From Nitrospinaceae bacterium (lineage in GTDB: Bacteria > Nitrospinota > Nitrospinia > Nitrospinales > VA-1), in NCBI GenBank assembly GCA_021604505.1, contig BQJC01000003.1:62001-126000 (forward strand): a stretch of DNA of 64,000 bases. Direction: 5' to 3'. The position numbers and the translations under genes are program-made. The notes below the pieces were generated by a model. The model had not been told where the DNA came from. It was given only the letters and a program-made list of their open reading frames with translations, and ran no database searches. Numbering within the stretch: position 1 is the first letter of the stretch; every line of letters begins with the position of its first letter. Below are positions 3,259 through 34,517 of this stretch, piece after piece.

Positions 3259-4710
3259 TTAACCGACGCTGTTTTCCAGTTTCAGAGTCAGCAGTTTTTG
3301 TGCCTCGACGGCAAATTCCATCGGCAACTGCTTAAAGACCTCTTTACAGAATCCGTTGATCACAGCGGTGATGGCGTTTTCCCGGGAAATCCCCCGTTGC
3401 TCAAAATAGAAAAGCTGTTCTTCACTGATTTTGGAGGTGGACGCCTCATGTTCGATCTGAACCGAGCTGTTCGCGGATTCAATATAAGGAAATGTGTGCG
3501 CGCTGCACTTGTCCCCGACCAGCATGCTGTCGCACTGGCTGTAGTTCCTGGCATTGGCGGCGTTTTTACTGACCTTCACCTGACCGCGGTAACTGTTGCT
3601 GGAATAATCGGCGGAGATTCCCTTGGAAATGATACTGGACCGGGTGTTTTTCCCGAGATGGATCATTTTGGTTCCGGTATCGGCCTGCATGTGCCCGTTT
3701 GTCAGAGCAACGGAGTAAAACTCCCCCACTGTATTGTCACCTTGTAAAATACAGCTCGGGTATTTCCAGGTGATGGCGGACCCGGTTTCCACCTGGGTCC
3801 AGGAAATTTTTGAATTGTCCCCCTGGCATTTTCCGCGCTTGGTGACGAAATTGTAGATGCCGCCCTTTCCGGTTTCCATATCGCCCGCGTACCAGTTCTG
3901 CACGGTGCTGTATTTGATCTCGGCGTTATCCATCGTCACCAGTTCGACCACCGCGGCGTGAAGTTGGTTGGTATCAAACTGCGGCGCCGTACAGCCTTCC
4001 AGATACGATACGTAACTGTTCTCTGCACAGATGATCAATGTCCGTTCGAACTGGCCGGTCTCTTCCGTATTGATACGGAAATAAGTGGAAAGCTCCATCG
4101 GGCTGATCGTGTCCGGCGGAATATAAACAAAAGACCCATCCGTAAAAACGGCGCTGTTCAGAGCGGCGTAAAAATTGTCGCCCACCGGCACGACGGACCC
4201 CATGTATTCCTCGACCAGTTCCGGATATTCCTGGATGGCTTCTGAAATCGGACAGAAAATGATGCCGACTTCCATCAGTTTTTTCTTATGCGTCGTCGCC
4301 ACGCTCACACTGTCGAAAACCGCGTCCACCGCCACATTGGACAGTTTTTTCTGTTCATCCAGGGGAATGCCGAGCTTCTCAAACGTCCGCAAAAGTTCAG
4401 GATCCACTTCATCCAGACTCTCAAGTTTTTTCTTCGGCTTGGGAGCGGAATAGTAAGAAATTCCCTGGTAATCGATCGGCGGATAATGCACATTGGGCCA
4501 CTGCGGTTGTTTCATGGTCAGCCATTTCTCGTAGGCTTTGAGCCTGAAATCCAGCATGAACTGCGGCTCGTTTTTTTTCTTGGAAATGGCCCGCACCACG
4601 TCCTCGTTCAACCCCTTGGCAAAGGTTTCCGATTCGATCAGGGTCTGGAACCCGTACTTATATTTTTTATCCTCTAAAACATCGGATACTGTATTTTCAG
4701 TAGATTTCAT
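3259..4710 (-). CDS. sufB: Fe-S cluster assembly protein SufB
   Basis: Main scaffold subunit of SufBC2D on which nascent Fe-S clusters form. The 483-aa length is standard. Family landmarks are visible: GYQ-type opening, [40 protein letters not shown] (with the conserved cysteine), a run of beta-helix repeats ending in [16 protein letters not shown], and [19 protein letters not shown] at the C-terminus. The ATG at 4710 follows the nifU-like gene by 30 bases and has GGGAGTG-type Shine-Dalgarno sequence upstream. It is cotranscribed with the flanking suf genes on the minus strand. Confidence 0.97.
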
Positions 4711-4740
4711 TATATGAACACTCCCTTAGGGAATTTCAGG

Positions 4741-5487
4741 TTACATATTGGGCACAACGATCAACTCGTTGTAGATTTCATTGCGCAAGGCTTGCTCCAT
4801 AAACGAGAGCGTGGCTCCTAACGAGGAACCGCAACTGCCGCACGCCCCCTGGTATTGAATCATTATCTTTTCTCCGTCCACCACGTCCAGAACTTCAACG
4901 TTACCGCCATCGGCCATCAAAGCGGGGCGGATCTTTTCATCCAGAACCAGGTTGATCTGGGCTTTTTGGTCTTCCACACTCAAACCCATCCAGGCCTGTT
5001 CGGCCATCGACAATTCAGCCATCGACCGCTTGGGTTTGTCCTCTTTTTTAGCCGCGGCGCTGGCGATGGCCAGTCCCTTAGCCCCTGGGTAATCGTCTTT
5101 GATGATTTTCAGCAATTCTTCCACCGCGCCAAACGCAAACAGTTTAGCTTCCGGCACGGACGGCACGTCGGGTTCATCCCGCAGGTGATTCTCCACATCC
5201 GTTCCGAGGAGAGAACAAGCCTCGGCAATGGTCAATCCCTTCACCAGAGAAGACAACGTCTCACCGATGGCCAGCGAAACCTTGCCCCCGTAAGCGAAAA
5301 ACTTGGCGCTGAAGATCCGGTCCTCTTCAGTATCCACCAGCCAGTAGAGTTTCATATCCTTGTACTTGGCTTCCACCAGGGCCATCCCCTTTTCATTGGC
5401 ATCTTCCTGGTAGTAAGCCCCGCGGTTCTTAGGCTGAGCGGCCATTTCTTCAAATTTCTTTGAAAACTTATCTTCCGCAACCGACAT
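4741..5487 (-). CDS. NifU-like Fe-S protein with degenerate IscU domain
   Basis: First gene of the SUF operon (248 aa). The C-terminal third is a clear Nfu/NifU C-terminal domain: ALMADGGNVEVLDVVDGEKIMIQYQG followed by the cluster-binding CGSCGSS (CxxC). The N-terminal half resembles an IscU/SufU scaffold (DRIFSAKFFAYGGKVSLAIGETLSSLVKGLTIAEACSL), but the canonical FGCG cysteine is replaced (FAYGG) and I see none of the other scaffold cysteines, so that domain probably no longer builds clusters. A middle segment rich in Ala/Lys links the two. The ATG at 5487 is chosen over an upstream in-frame start at 5568 because AAAGGA lies just before it and the extension has no family match. The likely role is cluster carrier or Suf accessory. 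Confidence 0.88.
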   Translation of the reverse strand: MSVAEDKFSKKFEEMAAQPKNRGAYYQEDANEKGMALVEAKYKDMKLYWLVDTEEDRIFSAKFFAYGGKVSLAIGETLSSLVKGLTIAEACSLLGTDVENHLRDEPDVPSVPEAKLFAFGAVEELLKIIKDDYPGAKGLAIASAAAKKEDKPKRSMAELSMAEQAWMGLSVEDQKAQINLVLDEKIRPALMADGGNVEVLDVVDGEKIMIQYQGACGSCGSSLGATLSFMEQALRNEIYNELIVVPNM

Positions 5488-23215: not shown

Positions 23216-24037
23216 TCACCGCGATTTAATGTCCAGCCCGATAGGACAATGATCTGAACCCATCACCTCCGGCCGGATAAATGCATCGTTCACCTTGTTG
23301 ACCAGATCCTCGGTGACGAAAAAATAGTCGATCCGCCAGCCGATGTTTCTCGCCCTGGCATTGGCGCGGTAGGTCCACCACGTGTACTGGTCCGGTTCCG
23401 GATGAAAAATGCGAAAGGTGTCCACATAACCGTGAGCGACGAATTTATCCACCCAGGCTCTTTCTTCAGGAAGAAACCCGGAGTTTTTCTCGTTGGCTTT
23501 GGCGTTTTTCAAGTCGATCGCTTTGTGAGCGGTATTGACATCCCCAGTGATGATCAGTTTTTTGCCCTGCGACCGCAACGATTCACAATGGTCCAGAAAC
23601 GCATCGTAAAAATCCATTTTGTATTGCAAACGTTCCGACCCACTGGTGCCATTGGGAAAGTAGACGTTCAGCAAATCAAATCCATTAAATTCCGTGCGGA
23701 TCACTCTTCCTTCGACATCGAACCTTTCGATTCCCAATCCCAGCGCAACGGATTTTGGTTTTTTTTTGCTGAAAGTGACCACCCCGCTGTACCCCTTCCG
23801 TTCGGCTGAGTTCCAAACCACCTGATAGCCTTCCGGTTGAAGGATATCATCCTCCAGGTTATCAGGCTGCGCCTTGGTTTCCTGAAGACACAGGACATCT
23901 GGAGATACGGCTTCAAACCAATCCCAAAATCCTTTCTTCAACACCGCTCGAATCCCGTTCACATTCCAGCTGTATATAATTATGACTGGCTCCTCAGAAA
24001 GATTGGATGATCTGCTGAATTTACCGGGACAAATCAA
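23216..24037 (-). CDS. xth: Exodeoxyribonuclease III
   Basis: AP endonuclease/3'-5' exonuclease of base-excision repair. Active-site motifs of the exonuclease III family are all present: WNVNGIRAVLKKGF, VLCLQETKAQ (metal-binding Glu), ITGDVNTAH (D-x-N), and the C-terminal WRIDYFFVTEDL...GSDHCPIGLDI. The open frame begins at a TTG (24037), but the only ribosome site, GAGGAG at 23990-23995, points into the frame six bases before an ATA at 23981-23983, exactly where homologues start. Real translation may therefore begin at a rare ATA/ATT codon and give about 255 aa. The start overlaps the leader of the opposite GH18-like gene. Confidence 0.93.
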   Translation of the reverse strand: MICPGKFSRSSNLSEEPVIIIYSWNVNGIRAVLKKGFWDWFEAVSPDVLCLQETKAQPDNLEDDILQPEGYQVVWNSAERKGYSGVVTFSKKKPKSVALGLGIERFDVEGRVIRTEFNGFDLLNVYFPNGTSGSERLQYKMDFYDAFLDHCESLRSQGKKLIITGDVNTAHKAIDLKNAKANEKNSGFLPEERAWVDKFVAHGYVDTFRIFHPEPDQYTWWTYRANARARNIGWRIDYFFVTEDLVNKVNDAFIRPEVMGSDHCPIGLDIKSR

Positions 24038-24080
24038 AAGAAGCAGGTATTATGGCACAAATATCATTTTTGTAAAAAAA

Positions 24081-25169
24081 ATGCGCAAACCCCTCTACAT
24101 AAGGAAACCAGCCGCTTTAGCTCTCAGCATTTTCCTCATATTTTGTTGGTTGCCCGCCGCAAATGCAGAGCCACCCCTTAGGTTCGGGGGATGGGTGACT
24201 TACTGGGATTTCAAGCGAGGGATGAACACCGTCTTTGAAGGAGCGGGTATCTATAAGGACATTTTCCTGTTTTCCACCCTGTTGGATCCGGATGGAACTC
24301 CCAGCAAAGTCAATTCAGAAACCGTCAACTACCCCTCCGCCCTTAAACGTTTAAAATCCTCAGGCTTTCAACCCTGGTTGACCATTGTTAACGATGTCAA
24401 ATCCCCCCAGGGAAATAAAGCCATTCTGAAAGATCCAAACCTCGTTCACCAAATTTTAAAAGAGGATGAATCGCGCCGCAAACATCAGCAGAAAATAATT
24501 GATTTCGCGAAAACGTATGAAGTCACAGGGGTGGACATCGACTATGAAAACCTTTTTCCCGGTGACCGGCTTCCCTTCACCCGGTTTATTTCGGAACTGG
24601 CCAAAGATCTTAAAAAACAGAACCTGTCACTTTCCGTCACCGTCCAACCTAAAACCGGGAGATCATCGAGTCAGGGAAAGGGGGCAATGGATTGGTCCCA
24701 GATTTGCCGGCACGCGGACCGGTTACAGATCATGCTGTACAATTTACACAACCCAAAAACCCAGCCGGGTCCGGTGGCCACTCTCGATTGGATATCCAGT
24801 GTCCTCAAGTATGCCAAAAACCAATGTGATCCGAAAATCATCGTGCCCGTTCTTAAAGTCAGCGGGATGCATTGGAGCTCCAGAAAGAATAAAGCGATTC
24901 AATACGACCAGGCGATGGATTTAAAAACCAGACACGGCGTAAAATTAGAACGGGAAACCGTCAGCAAAGTCCCTTATTTTTCTTACCGAACAGGTACTGA
25001 ACGCGGGACCGTCTACTTCGAAGATGCGCACAGTCTGAAAATAAAAATCGAACACATCAAATCCTTGGGGTTCGAAACAATCGTTTTCTGGAGTTTCGGC
25101 AGGCAGGACCCCGAGTTGACCTTTCAACTGAAAGAATTTTTAAAACCGGTAGCCAAGGACGGCTTGTAA
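24081..25169 (+). CDS. Secreted GH18-like glycoside hydrolase
   Basis: Exported protein (362 aa, signal peptide cut after LPAANA) with a TIM-barrel of the GH18/spore-germination chitinase type. The active-site strand is TGVDIDYEN (residues 149-157), matching DxxDxDxE with its first Asp replaced by Thr but with the catalytic Glu156 kept. Other barrel marks are FGGWVTYWD at the start, LQIMLYN, and VFWSFGRQDPEL at the end. The ATG at 24081 begins the signal peptide; an upstream in-frame ATG at 23982 would put 33 unlikely residues in front. Its end overlaps the polysaccharide exporter gene by 30 bases, tail to tail. Possible role: trimming the polymer made by that locus; this is inference. Confidence 0.78.
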   Translation: MRKPLYIRKPAALALSIFLIFCWLPAANAEPPLRFGGWVTYWDFKRGMNTVFEGAGIYKDIFLFSTLLDPDGTPSKVNSETVNYPSALKRLKSSGFQPWLTIVNDVKSPQGNKAILKDPNLVHQILKEDESRRKHQQKIIDFAKTYEVTGVDIDYENLFPGDRLPFTRFISELAKDLKKQNLSLSVTVQPKTGRSSSQGKGAMDWSQICRHADRLQIMLYNLHNPKTQPGPVATLDWISSVLKYAKNQCDPKIIVPVLKVSGMHWSSRKNKAIQYDQAMDLKTRHGVKLERETVSKVPYFSYRTGTERGTVYFEDAHSLKIKIEHIKSLGFETIVFWSFGRQDPELTFQLKEFLKPVAKDGL

Positions 25170-28100
25170 GTTCACGCTGTCGTAGCCCGGAACGACTGAA
25201 AATTTAGTCGCCAGACCGGCTTTTAGTTTACGGGTCAGAAAGTAATCAAAATTGAATCCGCCGTTGGTCGCCCAGCGAACTCCATGGACTTTATCGTCCG
25301 CGCCTCCCAGGCCCAAATCAGCCCGAACTTCGGCATCCTGACCCAGTTTACGTTGATAAAGAATCCTGGCGAAGCCGATCAGCAGTTGATCGGGAGTGTA
25401 ATATTCTCGGGCTTCAAAGTCGGAATCCCTGAAAGAAAGGTCGGCTCCAATTTTCCAGTTTTTTAAACCAGGCAACCGATAGCGTAAACCGGTTCGAATA
25501 TCAAATCCCGCATTGCCGTCGTCATAATCCTGATAGGCCATTCCCATTTTACCGAGAAGAGCCGGGGAAAACCGGGTCTGGTACCCCAGACTGTAGGTTT
25601 TTACCTGAATTCCATTCTCTATGGCCTGGACCGTATCGATGTCCTGTCTGGCCCCATTAAACTGAAACGTGTGAACATTTCTCTGGTATTTTGCCGACAT
25701 CCAATAGTTCTGCGTGTCCTTTCTTTGCGACAGAGTGCGGTGCCGAAGCTTTCCTTCCAACTGCAAAAAATTCCATCCTCTCCAGTGAAGCCCCGCACTG
25801 ACGTGACCTCCGTCAATGTCCGGCCGACCCTTTTCTTTAAAATCTAAAATCCCCCCTTCCAGCGCCAACTCCAGCGGAACCTTCAGGGGAAAGTACACTT
25901 TGGCCGATTGAGAATGATTGCTCCGGTCGTTGGAATCGCGGAAAAAGTTGAAGCGACCCAAAACGCGGGGACGGTTTCTCCAGGCCAGCGCCTCCCGCAA
26001 AGCTTCCACTTTAGGGTTGAGAACAGATTCCTGATCGGGAATGCCGTCCAGAAGATTTTCTGAATCCCAGGTGTTTCCTCCCTGGTAAGAAATATCGGCA
26101 AGATAGAATTGCAATTTATCTTTCAACCGGGGTTCTCGTAAAATCAGACTGGAAAACGTTTTTTCAGCATCCGAGTAATGGCCATTCCAATACTGGGATT
26201 TTGCCATTGCAACCTGAGCCATATGAGAAGGATGCGCTTCTACGAGATGCCGGACCAGTCGATCCCCATCCCAGTCGCGCGGAACGGAAAAACGCCGCAG
26301 TAAAGAAGTGTTGCTATCACCCGGTTTCACCTGGTTGTATCCTGTCGAATCCTGAATAAAACCGAACTTAAAATATTTCTGCAGAAGAGTCCGGTTAACG
26401 GCTCTCGCGGAGTCCGCGTTTCCGTTTCGCGATTGCCCCGCTTCCGAAAAAGGATACGCGTACCCGACCACGCTCAGGCCCGGAATTTCAGTTTTCAGGA
26501 GATTGATATTCCGCTGATAGTCCCCATCCAGGCGAGCATAAAATTCAGTTGCGGTTTCCTGCCGGTTATTTTTGTTCAACCACCGGAAGTTGGTCAGAAA
26601 ATTTCCCTCCCCTCCTTTAGAGTCGATGGCAACCCTATCATGCGCTTCATGCCCGTGAGCCTGAAGATCCCAACGGCCCGACCCTGCGTATTCGCGGAAC
26701 CGGTTCCAATCGGCAAAAAAGGGGGCGCCATCATGAATTCTGGCTGTGGGAACAAACATAGTGGCTTTCATGCCGTATTTTTTTAGTATCGGGTCTCCAA
26801 GTCGAAACGCATCGCGGCGGCCGTCATCAAAGGTGATCAAAATCGGCTTTTCAGGAAGAGGTCGTTTATTATTCAGAGCATCCCCCAACTCAGCCACCGT
26901 GAGAGATGTAAAACCCGCATCGACCAGGGCTTTTAATTGCTCATCAAAGCGCTCGACCCACAAATTGCGGTTCCGGGCATGACCGCTCAGTCCGTGATAC
27001 AGCAAAATGGGGATGTATTTTCCTGGCTCCGCTGGGTTTGCAACGCGCCAATAATACCTTTTCGCGGCATCCAGGTCGTTCATCGCGGTCATGAGATTTC
27101 CCATTTCCAGATTGACTTCATAATCCTTGAAGAATATCTCCTGCTTCGATTGCAAATGACGCATCGCTTCTTCCATACGTCCAAGCGCTTTTAACGAGTG
27201 GAAGGTGCCTATGAACGCCCTTCGGTTATCGGGGTGGATTTTTCCAATATCCTTAAAAACCGCAAGCGCGTCCTCGTACTTGTTATCCTTGACCTGCAAA
27301 TCCCCGATGGATAGCTGAATTCCCACATCGTCCGGGAATTTTTTTTGAGCCTTCTTTAGGAGAGAATCGGCGTCGGCAAGTCGGTCCAGTTCCACATAAA
27401 GTTTTGCCAATAGCAACCAGTCGCCTGCCTGATCTTCATGATTTTTCAATAACGTTTCATACCAGAACACAGCTTGTTCTTGGTCCCGGCGAAACAAGGC
27501 ATCGTCAGCCAGAAATTTAATGATTGGCTTATAAGGGCCATTTTGGCTAATAAAATTTTTGGCCTCCTTGACGGATGTTTCATATTCACCCATCTCGTAG
27601 AGGCACTGAATCCAATAAAAATAGGCCCGTGGAGAATTCGATCCCATGTCCAATACGCTCCGCCACTGAGCCAGTCCCCTTTTAAAGTCCTGGCCCTGCA
27701 TCAACACCTCGCCATAAAAATACTGGATAGGAAGATGGCCGGGAAACTCCCGAACGATACGACTCATTTTTCCTAAAGCCTCTGGATACTGCTTAACCCA
27801 ATACAACGCTTTCACTTCCAATAGTTTTTGATCAGGTTGATTGGGAGCAACCTTCAAACTCCGTTCCAGCACCGACAATGATTTTTCATAATCTCCTTGG
27901 TCCAGATAAAACCGCGCCAGCAAATTATAAGGTTCCGCTTTCCCCGGAAATTGCTTTTGATATCGCTTCCATATTTTTTCGCTTTCCTGCCTTTCTCCCG
28001 CATTCCAGTAAAGCCAACCCAGGTCCCGATAGGCCGCGGAGTTTTTATCATCGTGCGAAAGCGATTTCTCATAATTCAATATTGCGTGCGGAACATTTCC

Positions 28101-29333
28101 GGCTTTCCGCTCACGGGCGCCCATTTTGCTATACAACCTTGCCAAAGCCTTGTTGGTCACTTCCGAGTTTGAGGAATGAGGAAGACGCTGAAGAAAAAAC
28201 TCGAGCCCCTGATCAATAGTTTCATGGCGGATGAACTGGTTCGCCGCCGTCAAAGACCATTCCCGATCGGCTGTGTCTGACCTGAAAGCCTGTCTTAAAG
28301 CCGTCACCGCTCTTGGAACACGCTTTTCTTTCAGCGCCAGTTCAAACAACCGAAAATGTAAATTTTCTCCTGACGAATCCATCCGTGCGGCATTCTGGTA
28401 CCAAACCTCCGCCTCCGACGTCTGACCGGAATGATAGTAGGCACTCGCAATCTGATGGAATAGCTGAAATCCGGTAAACCCCTGATCCACAATTTTTAAC
28501 CAGGCTTTTACCGCTTCATCGTATTTTCCCTGTTTTTCCAGGGCCCATCCCAGGCTATCCAACCGAGTTCTATGGTCCGGCTCCCAGTTCAGAGCTTGTC
28601 TATAAACCGCCTCTGCTTTTTGAAATTGGCCCTGCTGATAAAATTCGTCTCCCTGGCGGGCATAGAGGGAGGATAACCTGACCGCCACCCACTCAAATTT
28701 TGCCTCGTTGGGAAAAGTGGAATACGAATCTAAATAATTTTTTAATAACGAAATCGACAGATCCCGCTGACGCAAGGATTCATAGGCGTCAGCAAGGTGA
28801 GTGAAAGCTTCCCAATGGTCCGGCTGTAATTCTAAAACACTTTTGAAAAGATCCCTGGCGCGACCCGTTCGTCCCATTTTTTGGAGGGCTTTTCCCAAAC
28901 GAAAGCGAACGAGAGTTTGAGCGGGTTCCAGTCTCAGGCTTTCGTTCAGGTGCCGGATGGCGCGGCGCCATTGATTTTCTTCCATCAGCAAAAACCCAAC
29001 GGCGTTTCTGATTTTCCGATTTTCCGGATCGACTTTGAGGATGGTCTCCCAGGTTCGAAGCGCTTCCTGCATTTGTCCAGATTTATAATAAGCCCAACCC
29101 AGATTTTCCCAGGCCTTCATGTGTGCCGGGTCAAGAGTTGTTGCTTTTTTAAACGCGGTTAACGCTTCCTCATATCGACCTTCTTTGAAATATTGGGTTC
29201 CCTGATCCAGAGCCTCCTGTCCGGGGCTCCTGGCAAAAGCCAGGGGTTGAACCCAAGCCAGCTTCAAAACGCAAAGAGTGACAAAACAAGAAAAAATCCT
29301 TACGTTTAAAAAACCGAATTTAGATAAAATCAC
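25140..29333 (-). CDS. TPR - polysaccharide deacetylase - outer-membrane beta-barrel fusion exporter
   Basis: A 1397-aa protein that joins what are usually separate parts of a PNAG-type system. Signal peptide about 1-34; tandem TPR units about 35-770 (first: YFKEGRYEEALTAFKKATTLDP); a CE4/NodB-type deacetylase about 774-1015 with PILLYHGLS, metal-binding TFDDG (834-838) and LQAHGHEAHD (about 889-898); two more TPR-like helices; then a beta-rich C-terminus about 1125-1397 ending in VLGYRF, with the terminal Phe typical of outer-membrane barrels. So PgaA-like (TPR plus barrel) and PgaB-like (deacetylase) functions are in one chain. The start is GTG with weak ribosome site; it lies 23 bases after the pseudo-deacetylase gene. 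Confidence 0.85.
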   Translation of the reverse strand: MILSKFGFLNVRIFSCFVTLCVLKLAWVQPLAFARSPGQEALDQGTQYFKEGRYEEALTAFKKATTLDPAHMKAWENLGWAYYKSGQMQEALRTWETILKVDPENRKIRNAVGFLLMEENQWRRAIRHLNESLRLEPAQTLVRFRLGKALQKMGRTGRARDLFKSVLELQPDHWEAFTHLADAYESLRQRDLSISLLKNYLDSYSTFPNEAKFEWVAVRLSSLYARQGDEFYQQGQFQKAEAVYRQALNWEPDHRTRLDSLGWALEKQGKYDEAVKAWLKIVDQGFTGFQLFHQIASAYYHSGQTSEAEVWYQNAARMDSSGENLHFRLFELALKEKRVPRAVTALRQAFRSDTADREWSLTAANQFIRHETIDQGLEFFLQRLPHSSNSEVTNKALARLYSKMGARERKAGNVPHAILNYEKSLSHDDKNSAAYRDLGWLYWNAGERQESEKIWKRYQKQFPGKAEPYNLLARFYLDQGDYEKSLSVLERSLKVAPNQPDQKLLEVKALYWVKQYPEALGKMSRIVREFPGHLPIQYFYGEVLMQGQDFKRGLAQWRSVLDMGSNSPRAYFYWIQCLYEMGEYETSVKEAKNFISQNGPYKPIIKFLADDALFRRDQEQAVFWYETLLKNHEDQAGDWLLLAKLYVELDRLADADSLLKKAQKKFPDDVGIQLSIGDLQVKDNKYEDALAVFKDIGKIHPDNRRAFIGTFHSLKALGRMEEAMRHLQSKQEIFFKDYEVNLEMGNLMTAMNDLDAAKRYYWRVANPAEPGKYIPILLYHGLSGHARNRNLWVERFDEQLKALVDAGFTSLTVAELGDALNNKRPLPEKPILITFDDGRRDAFRLGDPILKKYGMKATMFVPTARIHDGAPFFADWNRFREYAGSGRWDLQAHGHEAHDRVAIDSKGGEGNFLTNFRWLNKNNRQETATEFYARLDGDYQRNINLLKTEIPGLSVVGYAYPFSEAGQSRNGNADSARAVNRTLLQKYFKFGFIQDSTGYNQVKPGDSNTSLLRRFSVPRDWDGDRLVRHLVEAHPSHMAQVAMAKSQYWNGHYSDAEKTFSSLILREPRLKDKLQFYLADISYQGGNTWDSENLLDGIPDQESVLNPKVEALREALAWRNRPRVLGRFNFFRDSNDRSNHSQSAKVYFPLKVPLELALEGGILDFKEKGRPDIDGGHVSAGLHWRGWNFLQLEGKLRHRTLSQRKDTQNYWMSAKYQRNVHTFQFNGARQDIDTVQAIENGIQVKTYSLGYQTRFSPALLGKMGMAYQDYDDGNAGFDIRTGLRYRLPGLKNWKIGADLSFRDSDFEAREYYTPDQLLIGFARILYQRKLGQDAEVRADLGLGGADDKVHGVRWATNGGFNFDYFLTRKLKAGLATKFSVVPGYDSVNLQAVLGYRF

Positions 29334-29356: not shown

Positions 29357-31369
29357 TTAGATCCACCCGGACTCTGGCATGCGCTCTTTCAAAAGTTGGT
29401 GTGACTTGATGGGCTGGTGAATGTCCGGCCTGCCTTCGGTCGTGATAAGTAGCCGGCAGTCCATTTTGTCCAGCTTCGCCTCAAAAGCTGAAAAGCTGGG
29501 GAACCATTCCGAGTTCGCCCTCATTTCCCATTGACTCAAGTCCAGATGCACATGAGTCCAGCGATTGTGTTCCACCAATGTCTGAATTGCAGACATCCAC
29601 AAGGTAATCACCTCTTCACGCTGGCCCGTCTCTGCACCTTCATTTTCCGAATCTGGGTTAAATTTTTTCCCCGGCAAAAGCTTTACAGTTGGAATAAAAT
29701 CCCAACCATATCGGTGGGAAATGATTTGAAACAGGTCTCTATCGAAAGGAACCATAAGGAACTGGTCTCCTTGAACCAGATGAGTGACCGTTGTCACTCC
29801 TGAGACCTTTTCAGAAAGCTTGATCAGGTTTTGAATGTCATTTTCTTCCGGATATTTTTCCAACCAACGTATGTCATGCGGAAAAAATGAGACTTCAGCA
29901 TCCGACAACCCCAGCGCACCTTGTCCATCCTTTGACCAGACCCGAATCTCAATATCCCCATTCAGCCTGCCTTGCAAATAAACAGGTAATTCCCAAAGAG
30001 GTTTCCCTTCCCAATTGACGATGACTCCCTTTCCCCTTTTGATCAGCCGCAAATGATGCCAAATACCGAATGGGATTCCCGGTCCGGTACTGGCAAGATT
30101 TTCGTAACGGTTGTTGTCCATTCGATACTGTAAATGGATGTTATCTTCATTACCTCCCAACCGCCATTCATCCCCTTGCCTGCGGGAATTTTGACGAACC
30201 CAGAATTCACCGCGGTCTAAACGGATGTTTGCATTCAAGGTCCAGTTGTCCGCTTGACTTCTTCCTGGCTTGAAGATCACGGTTCCGGGAGACCCTCGAA
30301 GATGGGCTTCCGGTTTTGTACCGGGATCATGAACCAGGCTCAGTTCTTGCCCTGATAACTTAATGGAGTGGCCCGAGGTATCCACCCGTTCGCCTTTTCC
30401 GGTAAACCACACAGAGTCTTCCTGGGTGGCTTTCTGTTTTAGAACCGCTGTCGTCTGAATGGCTTTATTTGTCAAGGCAAGCAACGTCTCTGGTTGCCAG
30501 CCGGGTTGAACCCTGAGCCGCCTCAGCCGGAACGGATCGGATCTAATGTCATTGACCCCGACAAAACTATCCACGAATCCCAATTGAAAAAATTGTTTCA
30601 AAGCTTGATCATTTTGTTTTGAAAGTTCACGGTAAAGAGAAGAATAAGCCAGGATTTTATATCCAGATATATTTTCCGCGATCATGTCGCGACTGATCTT
30701 ATAATCCTGAAGAACCCTTGCGGAATATTCGTGGTCACTTTCCTCCCTTCCCCCTTCTTCAATCCAGGCCTTGTGAGTGAGATATCGGCCCACGACTTGG
30801 TTTTCAGCGTCCGTCATCACTTCACGACTGCGATGCCCCGCGGAAACAATGCTCCAAATCCCGCTATCGACCATCCGCCGCAATCGATCCCAGTAAAGAA
30901 AAAAGGTCTCCCGCTGATCGATCGCATCGGTGATCAGAGCAACCGTCGCAGGCCATTTAATTTCTCGAAGAACAGGATCAACCACCGAAAAGGTCTCCAG
31001 GTATCCATTGGCAAAAATCAGCAGAAGCGATTTCTCCGGCAACTTGCCATCTTTGTAATAAAAGTTAAAAACATCATTTACGGAAACCGCTTCAAATCCA
31101 CTCTGAGCGAGGGCCGTTAGCTGATGACGCAACTGCTCCTGATGAACAGGGTCTTCGTTTTCCCCCCAAACCACCCGGTCAAATTCCAGAACCGTTAAAG
31201 TTGCCTGACTGGACACGGGTCCCTTCCAGGAGCGGAGTTCAACAGGATCGACTTCCCTAATGCTTTCCGTTGCCCAAAAGAAAATCAGCGCAAACAGAAT
31301 CAGAGCGCCCCACGCAAATTTATCTCTTTTAAAAGTTTTAGAAGCATAGGCCGTTTTTTGATCGCTCAT
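29357..31369 (-). CDS. Membrane-anchored pseudo-deacetylase with concanavalin-like domain
   Basis: Protein of 670 aa in the polysaccharide operon. One membrane helix (about 18-36) anchors it in the inner membrane with the rest in the periplasm. Residues about 55-300 follow the NodB-homology fold (LTVLEFDRVVW, VNDVFNFYYKDGKLPEKSLLLIF, WPATVALITD), but the catalytic TFDDG is IFANG (119-122) and the metal histidines are reduced to GHRSRE (178-183), so it should be inactive. About 340-505 is a beta-sandwich of LamG/laminarin-like style (WHHLRLIKRGKGVIVNWEGKPLWE). The C-terminal 160 residues recall the barrel-like C-terminal half of PgaB (VHLDLSQWE). It starts 3 bases after the synthase. Likely a polymer-binding chaperone. 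Confidence 0.72.
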   Translation of the reverse strand: MSDQKTAYASKTFKRDKFAWGALILFALIFFWATESIREVDPVELRSWKGPVSSQATLTVLEFDRVVWGENEDPVHQEQLRHQLTALAQSGFEAVSVNDVFNFYYKDGKLPEKSLLLIFANGYLETFSVVDPVLREIKWPATVALITDAIDQRETFFLYWDRLRRMVDSGIWSIVSAGHRSREVMTDAENQVVGRYLTHKAWIEEGGREESDHEYSARVLQDYKISRDMIAENISGYKILAYSSLYRELSKQNDQALKQFFQLGFVDSFVGVNDIRSDPFRLRRLRVQPGWQPETLLALTNKAIQTTAVLKQKATQEDSVWFTGKGERVDTSGHSIKLSGQELSLVHDPGTKPEAHLRGSPGTVIFKPGRSQADNWTLNANIRLDRGEFWVRQNSRRQGDEWRLGGNEDNIHLQYRMDNNRYENLASTGPGIPFGIWHHLRLIKRGKGVIVNWEGKPLWELPVYLQGRLNGDIEIRVWSKDGQGALGLSDAEVSFFPHDIRWLEKYPEENDIQNLIKLSEKVSGVTTVTHLVQGDQFLMVPFDRDLFQIISHRYGWDFIPTVKLLPGKKFNPDSENEGAETGQREEVITLWMSAIQTLVEHNRWTHVHLDLSQWEMRANSEWFPSFSAFEAKLDKMDCRLLITTEGRPDIHQPIKSHQLLKERMPESGWI

Positions 31370-31372
31370 GAT

Positions 31373-33016
31373 TTATCGCGTCCCCCAATGGTTTTGCCGA
31401 ACGGTAAATAAGGCGTAATAAGTTTGCCAGACCAGAACCAGCATGTAGAAAAACGAAAACGATATTCCGTAGACCCACAAACGGGTGCGAAAAAAAGCCA
31501 GGTAAACCAGACTGTAAAGGCCCGCCATTAAAACGGCCCCATAGATATAGAGATAGGAAAACGGCCAGAACCCCAAAAGCGGAAGGACAACGGCATTCAA
31601 CACAATGAAGGGAGCGATGACCGGAAACAACACCCCCGAATAATAGAAAAAAGCCGCCACGGGATGCCGCTTCCACATGAAGAAGCAAGCCAGAAAACTT
31701 TCCCGAATCCAGGATTTTTTCCAGCGAAGCTGTTGCCGAAAAAATATTCCATATTTTTCCGGAACGATCGTGGTGCACACCGCCTCGGCATGGTAGATCA
31801 CCCGGTATTTTCTGAGCATGAAATTGGTCAAACTGCGGTCATCCCCAAAGGTGGCTTGAATGCCAAGAAACTTCTGATTCAGCCACACATCGAGGATGTC
31901 CATCACGTATTTGCGCCTGTAAGCGGCGAAACATCCCGAACAACAGGACACAGTTGAAAAAAGCGATTCCGCCGCTTTGATCACCCGGAAAGCGACAAAA
32001 TACCGGACATCCTGCATCTTGGTCAGGGCATTGACTTTTGCATTGGCCACATTGGCGTGCCCGCACACGGCACCGACATCGCTGTCATAAAACCCCTGCA
32101 CAATTTTGTACAGGCCGTCTGGCCGGATGAAGCTGTCCGAATCGATGTATACAAGAATCTCACCCTTCGCCATGCGGGCTCCGATGGCCATGCCATGCCG
32201 TTTTCCCCGGTTCTCTTCAAAATTCACCACCCTTAACGAGGAATGATCCTCAGCCGACCGTTGCATTTCCTTTAAAGTACCGTCGGTGGACCCGTCATTC
32301 ACTGCGATCACTTCAAAACGGTCCTTGGGGTAATCCGACCGGTACACGCAGTCAATCGTACGGCGGATAGAGTCTTCTTCATTTTTACAGGCGATCACCA
32401 CGGTGACCGTAGGAAAGTGATCTCTGTCTTCAGGCGGTTTGTAAAATGCGGAAAATAAAAATCTGGAAAGGATGTAGATGGAGATAATTATGCTGTAGGC
32501 ATTGAAAACGGGTTGATACCAAAAATAAAAAACATTAAACCATTTCAAATACAAAACATTAAGAGTGCCTAGAACAAGAAGGAGAGTCACCAGCTTGGGA
32601 AGAAACTTAAAAAACCGGTATTTTAAAATTCCCTTTTTATCGTTGGCAAACTCAAGTCCGTAGGTGTACTTTGGCGTAGCAGACTCTTTTCCCGATTCCT
32701 GATTTTCAACGGTTTCCCAAACCACTTTAGCCTTGTCATTCCAGGCGGATTGAAGAAGCGAGCCGGAACCATTTTTCTTAACGGAGTCGTCATAGGTAAG
32801 GGGGTGAATCCATGCCCCCTTTTTAAGCGGATGCGGCGTGGAAATTCGGGCTCCCCCAAAACCAATATCAAGCAAATCGGCTCGCAGTTTTGTTTCTTTG
32901 CAAAACGGCTTGAGATCGGAAAAAAAGAAACCCGCCTTTAAAGGCTTGCGTCTGAAATTCCTCTCTTCCTGTTTGCGGCGCGAAGCCCAGGGAAAATCTC
33001 CCTTTTTTTGCGGCAT
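31373..33016 (-). CDS. PilZ - GT2 polysaccharide synthase (NodC/hyaluronan synthase type)
   Basis: Inner-membrane synthase of 547 aa, first gene of the operon. The N-terminal cytoplasmic part is PilZ-like, with RNFRR (RxxxR, about residues 19-23) and LLDIGFGGARI, where the usual Ser of D/NxSxxG is Gly. Then two membrane helices (about 140-195), a GT2 domain with VVIACKNEEDSI, NDGSTDGT, DSD (about 292-294), GDDRSLTN (about 391-398) and QQLRW (about 428-432), and four or five C-terminal helices. The GDDR...QQLRW pair resembles NodC and class I hyaluronan synthases more than PgaC (EDI...QRLRW). The product is thus probably a beta-linked GlcNAc-containing chain, made when c-di-GMP is high. ATG at 33016 with GAGGAT upstream. 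Confidence 0.83.
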   Translation of the reverse strand: MPQKKGDFPWASRRKQEERNFRRKPLKAGFFFSDLKPFCKETKLRADLLDIGFGGARISTPHPLKKGAWIHPLTYDDSVKKNGSGSLLQSAWNDKAKVVWETVENQESGKESATPKYTYGLEFANDKKGILKYRFFKFLPKLVTLLLVLGTLNVLYLKWFNVFYFWYQPVFNAYSIIISIYILSRFLFSAFYKPPEDRDHFPTVTVVIACKNEEDSIRRTIDCVYRSDYPKDRFEVIAVNDGSTDGTLKEMQRSAEDHSSLRVVNFEENRGKRHGMAIGARMAKGEILVYIDSDSFIRPDGLYKIVQGFYDSDVGAVCGHANVANAKVNALTKMQDVRYFVAFRVIKAAESLFSTVSCCSGCFAAYRRKYVMDILDVWLNQKFLGIQATFGDDRSLTNFMLRKYRVIYHAEAVCTTIVPEKYGIFFRQQLRWKKSWIRESFLACFFMWKRHPVAAFFYYSGVLFPVIAPFIVLNAVVLPLLGFWPFSYLYIYGAVLMAGLYSLVYLAFFRTRLWVYGISFSFFYMLVLVWQTYYALFTVRQNHWGTR

Positions 33017-33377
33017 CAAATCCTCGTGAGCGAATTGATCGAACCACCAATTGAATTTTTTGATGTGGTTTCTTACGAGGAAGCGTTACGCAATATCCGT
33101 TCCAAAATGAACTTTTATCGGAACAAGATAAAAAATCTAAAAAACTTTAAAGAGCCAGGAAATTTTATCTAAGGGTTTTATAGCGTTCCCATAAAAAGTG
33201 GAATTCTCGAACGTCAAAATTTTCCAATACATGTGAACCTTTGACGCAGGCTGGGATTTTCATGACAAGAGAAATCTTTGCGGCAGGCAACGGACCGTTT
33301 GTTTGCAATGAATCTCAAAACGTCTTCATACTTTGTTGCTGAAGGGATGAGTTAATATGCGGTGGGAGATTAAAAAC
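33017..33377. other. Upstream spacer of the polysaccharide operon
   Basis: About 360 AT-rich bases between the PilZ-synthase start and the end of the Sel1 gene. Must contain the operon promoter, but I cannot pick a convincing -35/-10 pair. A 48-codon frame on the plus strand (GTG at 33026 to 33172) exists; it is unsupported. Confidence 0.4.
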
Positions 33378-34517
33378 CTATCGCCTGCTCTTTTGCGGCT
33401 TCCATTCTGCCGCCCATTTCTGCGCCTCTGAAATTTGCTTGGGCGTCATGTGCTCTTCGGCCAAGCCCCTGTAACGAACAGCGTCTTTGTAGCCCGTAAC
33501 CCCCGCGAGGTTGAACCACATATGGGCCTGGACATAGTCCTGAGCGGCTCCCTGTCCCTTAAGATAACTCCATCCAAGATTGAATTGGGCTTGAGGCAAC
33601 CCCTGTTCCGCCGCCCGCCGGTACCATTTCAGAGCTTCGCTATAATCCTGAGGAACCCCTCGTCCATTGTCGTACATCCACCCGAGGCGCAGTTGAGCGT
33701 CAGCCTCGCCCTGAGCCGCGGCCATTCCATACCACTTGAAAGCCTTTTTATAATCCTTTGAAACCCCCCGTCCGTTGCGGTACATGCACCCAAGGTTTGC
33801 CTGAGCCCGTCCCAGCCCCTGGTTCGCCGCCAGCCGGTACCATTTCAATGCTTCCCTGAAATCCTGCGAAACACCAAGGCCCTTGCGGTACATCCAACCC
33901 AGATTAAATTGAGCTTCCACCTGCCCCTGTTCTGCCGCCAGCCGGTACCACTTGAGAGCTTCTCCGTAATCTTGTGAAACCCCAAGTCCATTCCGGTACA
34001 TCCAGCCCAGGTTGGATTGAGCTTCGGCCAAACCCTGTTCCGCTGCCAACCGGTACCACTTCAGAGCTTTCTCAAAATCCTGAACAGCTCCCTGTCCACT
34101 GGAAAAAATCAGCCCCAGGTTAAATTGGGCCAGGGCTTTTCCCTGTTCGGCCAGAGCCTTAAACTTTTCAATTGCAGTTTGAAAATCTCCCTGGACGTAA
34201 GCTTTAACGCCCATTTGGAAATCCGCTTCAGCATTGACATTGGCAAGTTTCGCCACGCCCTGGAGGGAAGTTTTAGGGTCTTTATTGAAATGGGTTGCTA
34301 AACCAATTTGGAAGTCGGCCTCTTCATCTGCAAAGGTCACTATTGGGGTTAAAAGGAAAAGGAAGACCAGCGCTTTACAAATACTATTTTTAACTAAAGG
34401 GGGGGATGGGGAAATACCGGTGACGTCGAAACCGATATCCGGCGGGTTTTGCGATAAGCCCCTCTCTGCCCATATAAAACAAGAGGGACGAAAAATATCT
34501 CCCCTGTTTTGAAACAT
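33378..34517 (-). CDS. Sel1-repeat protein
   Basis: Protein of 379 aa with one TPR-like unit (GVKAYVQGDFQTAIEKFKALAEQG) followed by six Sel1-like repeats of 36 residues, each of the form AQxNLGWMYRxGxGVxQDYxEALKWYRLAAEQG. The repeat is also obvious in the DNA, with a 108-base period. An internal hydrophobic stretch (ALVFLFLLTPIVTFA, about 49-63) looks like a signal peptide, but no ATG/GTG/TTG stands directly before it; the ATG at 34517 has AAGAGG upstream and adds about 43 residues. A C7 tract (minus strand) lies just before the hydrophobic stretch, so slippage or a sequencing error there could restore a shorter start. Sel1 proteins usually scaffold protein contacts in the periplasm. Confidence 0.85.
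   Translation of the reverse strand: MFQNRGDIFRPSCFIWAERGLSQNPPDIGFDVTGISPSPPLVKNSICKALVFLFLLTPIVTFADEEADFQIGLATHFNKDPKTSLQGVAKLANVNAEADFQMGVKAYVQGDFQTAIEKFKALAEQGKALAQFNLGLIFSSGQGAVQDFEKALKWYRLAAEQGLAEAQSNLGWMYRNGLGVSQDYGEALKWYRLAAEQGQVEAQFNLGWMYRKGLGVSQDFREALKWYRLAANQGLGRAQANLGCMYRNGRGVSKDYKKAFKWYGMAAAQGEADAQLRLGWMYDNGRGVPQDYSEALKWYRRAAEQGLPQAQFNLGWSYLKGQGAAQDYVQAHMWFNLAGVTGYKDAVRYRGLAEEHMTPKQISEAQKWAAEWKPQKSRR

Follow-up and report, generated by a model that had tools for sequence, protein, structure and literature searches.

The window, by which we mean the whole 64,000-nucleotide stretch of Nitrospinaceae DNA analysed here, carries three genes on the minus strand, encoding a family-2 processive glycosyltransferase (GT2; 31373..33019), a membrane-anchored PgaB-like protein (29357..31369) and a fused exporter-deacetylase (25140..29333), as well as a plus-strand gene for a secreted GH18 hydrolase (23982..25169). 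The GH18 gene is convergent with the fusion gene and overlaps its 3' end by 30 bp. The GT2, a polymer synthase resembling NodC and hyaluronan synthases, possesses a PilZ-like N-terminal domain, and the PgaB-like protein combines a destroyed deacetylase site with a C-terminal half that contains a lectin/CBM-like beta-sandwich. The GH18 enzyme retains an intact DxDxE motif (VDIDYE; PF00704, 90.8 bits). As in synthase-dependent exopolysaccharide systems, a GT2, a periplasmic modifying enzyme and a TPR protein with a predicted outer-membrane barrel are encoded in one operon. The operon genes abut each other, and no ORF of at least 90 amino acids for a small membrane protein such as PgaD was found on the same strand within or next to the operon in the window. 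Upstream of the GT2 gene lies a gene for a Sel1-repeat protein (33378-34517, minus strand), for which we saw no conserved membership of the operon.

In well-studied bacteria, exporter and deacetylase are separate proteins, as are PgaA (TPR plus barrel) and PgaB in the PNAG export of E. coli. The fusion protein comprises 1397 amino acids in one open frame with a GTG start. It begins with a signal peptide (residues 1 to ~34, with a cleavage-like AFA-R site at ~32-35), followed by an array of repeats matching TPR families (residues ~40-765), a CE4/NodB deacetylase domain (residues ~770-1032; 26238..27026, minus strand), a short TPR-like segment (residues ~1036-1115) and a predicted outer-membrane beta-barrel (residues ~1123-1397; 25140..25967, minus strand). 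The CE4 domain was identified by three lines of similarity: residues 824-909 match Polysacc_deac_1 (PF01522; 42.4 bits, E 8e-11, cut-off 23.1), residues 790-950 match the PgaB family TIGR03938 (E 5e-20), and residues 806-964 match 5bu6, a solved PgaB-type deacetylase domain (E 2e-12). In an alignment with E. coli PgaB, H780, D836, D837, H893 and H898 of the fusion correspond to H55, D114, D115, H184 and H189. The catalytic Asp, the metal-binding Asp and two metal-binding His residues are all present in conserved motifs (TFDDG, 834-838; HGHEAHD, 893-899), and by sequence the exporter chain contains an intact CE4 deacetylase domain. The dN/dS value for this domain was ~0.12 between the source genome (G000) and a congener (G001). 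No GH153 domain was found in the fusion, which therefore differs from PgaB, where CE4 and GH153 form one stand-alone protein. The original prediction had placed a signal peptide, about 700 residues of TPR and an intact NodB-type deacetylase in one 1397-residue chain, with TFDDG at 834-838, a histidine motif near 890 and further TPR-like helices behind the deacetylase, and these motif positions are correct. Its proposal to predict the structure of the deacetylase region gave no usable model (5-6 sequences, pLDDT mostly 26-55), including the arrangement of the domains, and the CE4 assignment is based on sequence.

Residues 700-1397 of the fusion were modelled with AF2 from five sequences, and the model was poor overall (mean pLDDT 55). 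From residue ~1123 onwards it contains 14 long consecutive strands (pLDDT ~60-89), and the last ~30 residues, which end in Phe, were poorly modelled; the predicted barrel likely has 16 strands. In a Foldseek search of the barrel model against PDB, PgaA (4y25) was the top match (E 3e-9), followed by BcsC (9b8a, 9b8h and 6tzk) and PelB (9h80), so that all five top matches are proteins that export exopolysaccharides (PNAG, cellulose or Pel). The homologue in L041 (see below) matched PF21197 (PgaA_barrel) over its whole length with an E-value of 7e-4, under the curated cut-off. The order of TPRs followed by a C-terminal outer-membrane barrel is that of PgaA-type exporters, and the score of the fusion against the PgaA family (TIGR03939) was 70.4 bits, far below the family cut-off of 366.65. 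The C-terminus had been described as beta-rich; the 14 modelled strands and the fold matches to PgaA, BcsC and PelB support its being an exopolysaccharide-type barrel, up to the badly modelled end.

The same continuous architecture was found in five further genomes at 33-67% identity. Three of them belong to the same genus (G001, 67%; G002, 52%; G004, 58%, at L038:6350-10333), and the other two represent distant lineages, namely L041 (JAJDBT010000081.1), which is labelled Nitrospirota (36%), and G231 from outside Nitrospinota (1277 aa, 33%). They bear on the concern, raised in the original prediction, that an assembly or frameshift error joined two genes. As the frame is open throughout and six genomes from independent assemblies show the same continuous architecture, the probability of such an artefact is negligible. 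Between L041 and the window, the CE4 domain is 51% identical, the TPR array 33% and the barrel 32%.

A contig search with a single protein retrieved no fusion homologue, and an alignment-based one retrieved three full-length fusion loci, two of which are those of G002 and G004. Among 77 genomes of the class and phylum, full matches to the barrel profile were confined to four genomes of the own genus. A search with PF21197 over 387 relatives detected no further fusion, which is a weak negative, as the model misses known fusions and the barrel in the window; it also detected a TPR-barrel protein without CE4 in G013 and a partial one in G132. When the synthase was searched for in these 387 genomes, no genome other than G231 and those of the own genus showed the full operon. 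A long frame of 1152 aa in G144 was discarded as spurious and GC-rich.

The gene set surrounding the fusion is conserved as well. In all six operons the GT2 gene, the PgaB-like gene and the fusion gene follow one another at very short gaps or with small overlaps, and each operon is flanked by a GH18 gene. The latter is convergent behind the fusion gene in five of the six, and divergent before the GT2 gene in G231 (L120:12540-13607); the association has outlasted a change in placement, which speaks for a functional link.

The PgaB-like protein, which the original prediction had not mentioned, is a dead second protein of this family kept in the operon. The window protein carries IFANGY for TFDDGY and an Asp at the position of H55. 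In place of the DD of this motif, the four members of the genus have AN, L041 has DT and G231 has DH; none of the six retains the histidine motif. The protein possesses one N-terminal membrane helix and no lipobox. In a model of low overall confidence, the fold of the N-terminal half is similar to that of the PgaB deacetylase, and the C-terminal half forms a jelly-roll beta-sandwich whose best matches include CBM66 and galectins. Judged from these residues, the operon encodes two PgaB-type CE4 domains, an intact one within the exporter and a dead one in the membrane-anchored protein, and we propose that this protein is a scaffold or polymer-binding partner. In the CE4 tree, the fusion CE4, the dead CE4 and a Paenibacillus protein grouped together (93/94), apart from PgaB, IcaB and NodB. 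The grouping, which has moderate support and includes some long branches, is consistent with a duplication in the operon, after which one copy was inserted into the exporter. The fusion CE4 was probably derived from the PgaB-like gene, with the exporter copy keeping the active site and the other copy losing it. Further polysaccharide deacetylase genes in the source genome (L001, G000:C1:874638; L002, G000:C2:687262; L004, G000:C2:398401) were not close to the operon CE4s in the tree. Free-standing CE4 genes of class members were considered as the direct source and rejected on the basis of their unrelated contexts and the tree.

A dead but retained CE4 in the sister protein sets a precedent for the possibility that the fusion CE4, too, is a structural or polymer-binding module that is non-catalytic in vivo. 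The G004 fusion could be regarded as such a case: its CE4 lacks all three motifs (YNGL for YHGL, IFDGG for TFDDG, and the histidine stretch deleted), and the remainder of the protein is kept. In addition, the Gly of TFDDG is replaced by Ala in four of the five homologues. Against this, (i) all metal-binding and catalytic residues are kept in five of the six fusions, at overall identities as low as about 35%, and (ii) the CE4 is the most conserved part of the L041 protein. We therefore consider a purely non-catalytic role of the fusion CE4 unlikely. Unless the G004 metagenome-assembled genome is faulty, deacetylation by the CE4 is dispensable at least in that organism, possibly as a natural loss.

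What polymer the system exports can be approached from the synthase. The GT2 scored higher against NodC (150 bits) than against PgaC (119 bits) or IcaA (101 bits), and among solved proteins its best relatives are hyaluronan synthases. At the position of NodC QQLRWARSTFRD and PgaC QRLRWAQGG it has QQLRWKKSWIRE, i.e., the QQxRW.(R/K)S motif of the NodC/HAS type and not the QR.RW.QGG motif of PgaC and IcaA. The tree grouped it with a Paenibacillus GT2 (94/94) and placed both outside the PgaC/IcaA clade. The match of its N-terminal region to PilZ was below the cut-off (E 0.04 in the window, 0.004 in L041), and the window protein contains RxxxR and DxGxGG motifs (RNFRR...DIGFGG). The GH153 domain of PgaB is absent: the fusion lacks it, and the PgaB-like neighbour has a CBM-like domain besides the dead CE4. 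To our knowledge, characterised GH18 enzymes cleave beta-1,4 bonds.

These observations bear on whether the operon is a rearranged pga operon that produces true PNAG (beta-1,6-GlcNAc), with GH18 in place of the GH153 half of PgaB. The barrel is nearest to PgaA, the CE4 is nearest to PgaB-type deacetylases, and the GT2 also matches PgaC at 119 bits, all of which would suit PNAG. The tree position of the GT2, the NodC/HAS-like QQLRWKKSWIRE, the closest solved relatives being hyaluronan synthases, the lack of PgaD and the beta-1,4 specificity of characterised GH18 enzymes are at odds with it, and we regard this origin as rather unlikely. The exported polymer is probably a GlcNAc-type chain, and a chitin-like beta-1,4 chain is at least as likely as PNAG, because GH18 is conserved beside the operon. 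The label of a PNAG-type system in the original prediction is only partly supported, given a synthase outside the PgaC/IcaA clade, the absence of PgaD and GH153, and the conserved GH18.

Taken together, it is quite likely that the operon of three genes on the minus strand, along with the convergent GH18 gene, constitutes a synthase-dependent exopolysaccharide system, in which a hexosamine polymer (most likely of GlcNAc) is deacetylated within the exporter. The path taken by the polymer, the succession of steps, control by c-di-GMP and enzyme activity are inferred as follows. The GT2 would synthesise the polymer and extrude it across the inner membrane, probably gated by c-di-GMP via the PilZ-like domain. 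The membrane-anchored, catalytically dead PgaB-like protein may bind the chain or hand it over, and the TPR superhelix of the fusion would guide it. The built-in CE4 would then deacetylate the chain beside the barrel, on the periplasmic side, during export, and the C-terminal barrel would pass it outside; the secreted GH18 may trim or free it.

Peptidoglycan is the substrate of many CE4 enzymes, and the best solved match of the GH18 enzyme is of the YaaH/SleL type of spore cortex enzymes. Both facts would suit a system in which CE4 and GH18 act on peptidoglycan, loosening the wall for the TPR exporter, and the exported polymer stays unmodified. The fusion CE4, however, groups with the PgaB-like family of the operon and not with NodB, and it sits at the junction of TPR and barrel, the very place where PgaA binds PgaB in E. 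coli; action on the wall thus seems very unlikely.

The position of the CE4 favours deacetylation of the exported chain. In E. coli, the porin-proximal (outer-membrane-proximal) TPR region of PgaA binds the deacetylase domain of PgaB and raises its activity (Pfoh et al. 2022, PMC9384988), and PelB likewise binds PelA and raises its deacetylase activity (PMC12022489). Because the fusion CE4 lies just before the barrel, where the TPR of PgaA binds PgaB (PMC9384988), the original proposal of a deacetylase at the mouth of the barrel is reasonable as regards position, on the periplasmic side; activity at this place is what we infer from anatomy. By analogy with PgaA, the most economical reading would be that the chain is deacetylated during export, as it enters the pore from the periplasm.

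The fusion had been put forward as an undescribed type, and we found no earlier description of a PgaA-PgaB-type fusion in the literature searched, a search that left most subscription journals outside. The main text of a survey of exopolysaccharide operons describes BcsZC (hydrolase plus porin) and fusions of glycosyltransferase and deacetylase, and does not name a PgaA-PgaB fusion (PMC7112194). Within the literature searched, the protein represents a new variant of synthase-dependent exopolysaccharide secretion, found here in few bacteria, namely Nitrospinota and two distant lineages. How deacetylation is coupled to export is only partly understood in the Pga and Pel systems, where the evidence for binding of the deacetylase to the TPR of the porin comes from co-expression, pull-downs and models. 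A covalent fusion that arose naturally at this place is independent evidence for a deacetylase working at the pore entrance, and it offers structural work a target in a single chain. As all six operons keep a dead PgaB paralogue, a role of PgaB-like proteins outside catalysis can be told apart from their enzymatic one.

Among known systems, PgaA (4y25, PF21197) resembles the fusion in having a TPR superhelix in the periplasm and, C-terminal to it, an outer-membrane barrel, and the deacetylase docks at its porin-proximal TPR; PgaA has no enzyme domain, whereas the fusion harbours a whole CE4 between the TPR array and the barrel. PgaB shares the CE4 motifs and the spacing of the residues with the fusion, and a second, PgaB-like protein is kept in the operon. 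PgaB consists of a deacetylase and GH153, whereas here the deacetylase is located in the exporter, and the PgaB-like neighbour is dead and membrane-anchored, with a lectin/CBM-like domain replacing GH153. A canonical four-gene pga operon was found in G326 (L124:6454-13826), with a 1239-aa PgaA, a two-domain PgaB, PgaC and a small ORF at the position of PgaD; its PgaB, 35% identical to that of E. coli, is a separate protein, in contrast to the fusion. According to the main text of the above survey, BcsZC in Zymomonas cellulose operons likewise joins a periplasmic polymer-modifying enzyme to a TPR/porin exporter, but the enzyme is a hydrolase (BcsZ) and the polymer cellulose, instead of a deacetylase and an amino-sugar polymer (PMC7112194). 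In PelA/PelB, as proposed for the fusion, the deacetylase acts while bound to the porin protein, which stimulates it (PMC12022489), but there are two chains, a deacetylase of family CE21 and another polymer.

A further counterpart is a plasmid cluster of the Gram-positive Paenibacillus cellulositrophicus (L081:2577-10207; NZ_CP045296.1), in which genes for a GT2 (43% identical to that of the window), a PgaB-like protein whose motif is disturbed (FEDG, histidines absent) and a GH18 are adjacent. A two-domain CE4 lipoprotein and an unannotated ORF similar to nucleotide-sugar dehydrogenases (4070-5314) precede the GT2. Paenibacillus differs in having no outer membrane, and its cluster has no TPR-barrel. 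We tentatively suggest, as one possible reading, that the window operon belongs to a separate class of exopolysaccharide systems with its own clade of NodC/HAS-like synthases and a secreted chitin- or chitosan-like, non-PNAG polymer, in which a core of synthase, pseudo-deacetylase and GH18 is common to Paenibacillus and is combined here with a Gram-negative exporter carrying an active deacetylase.
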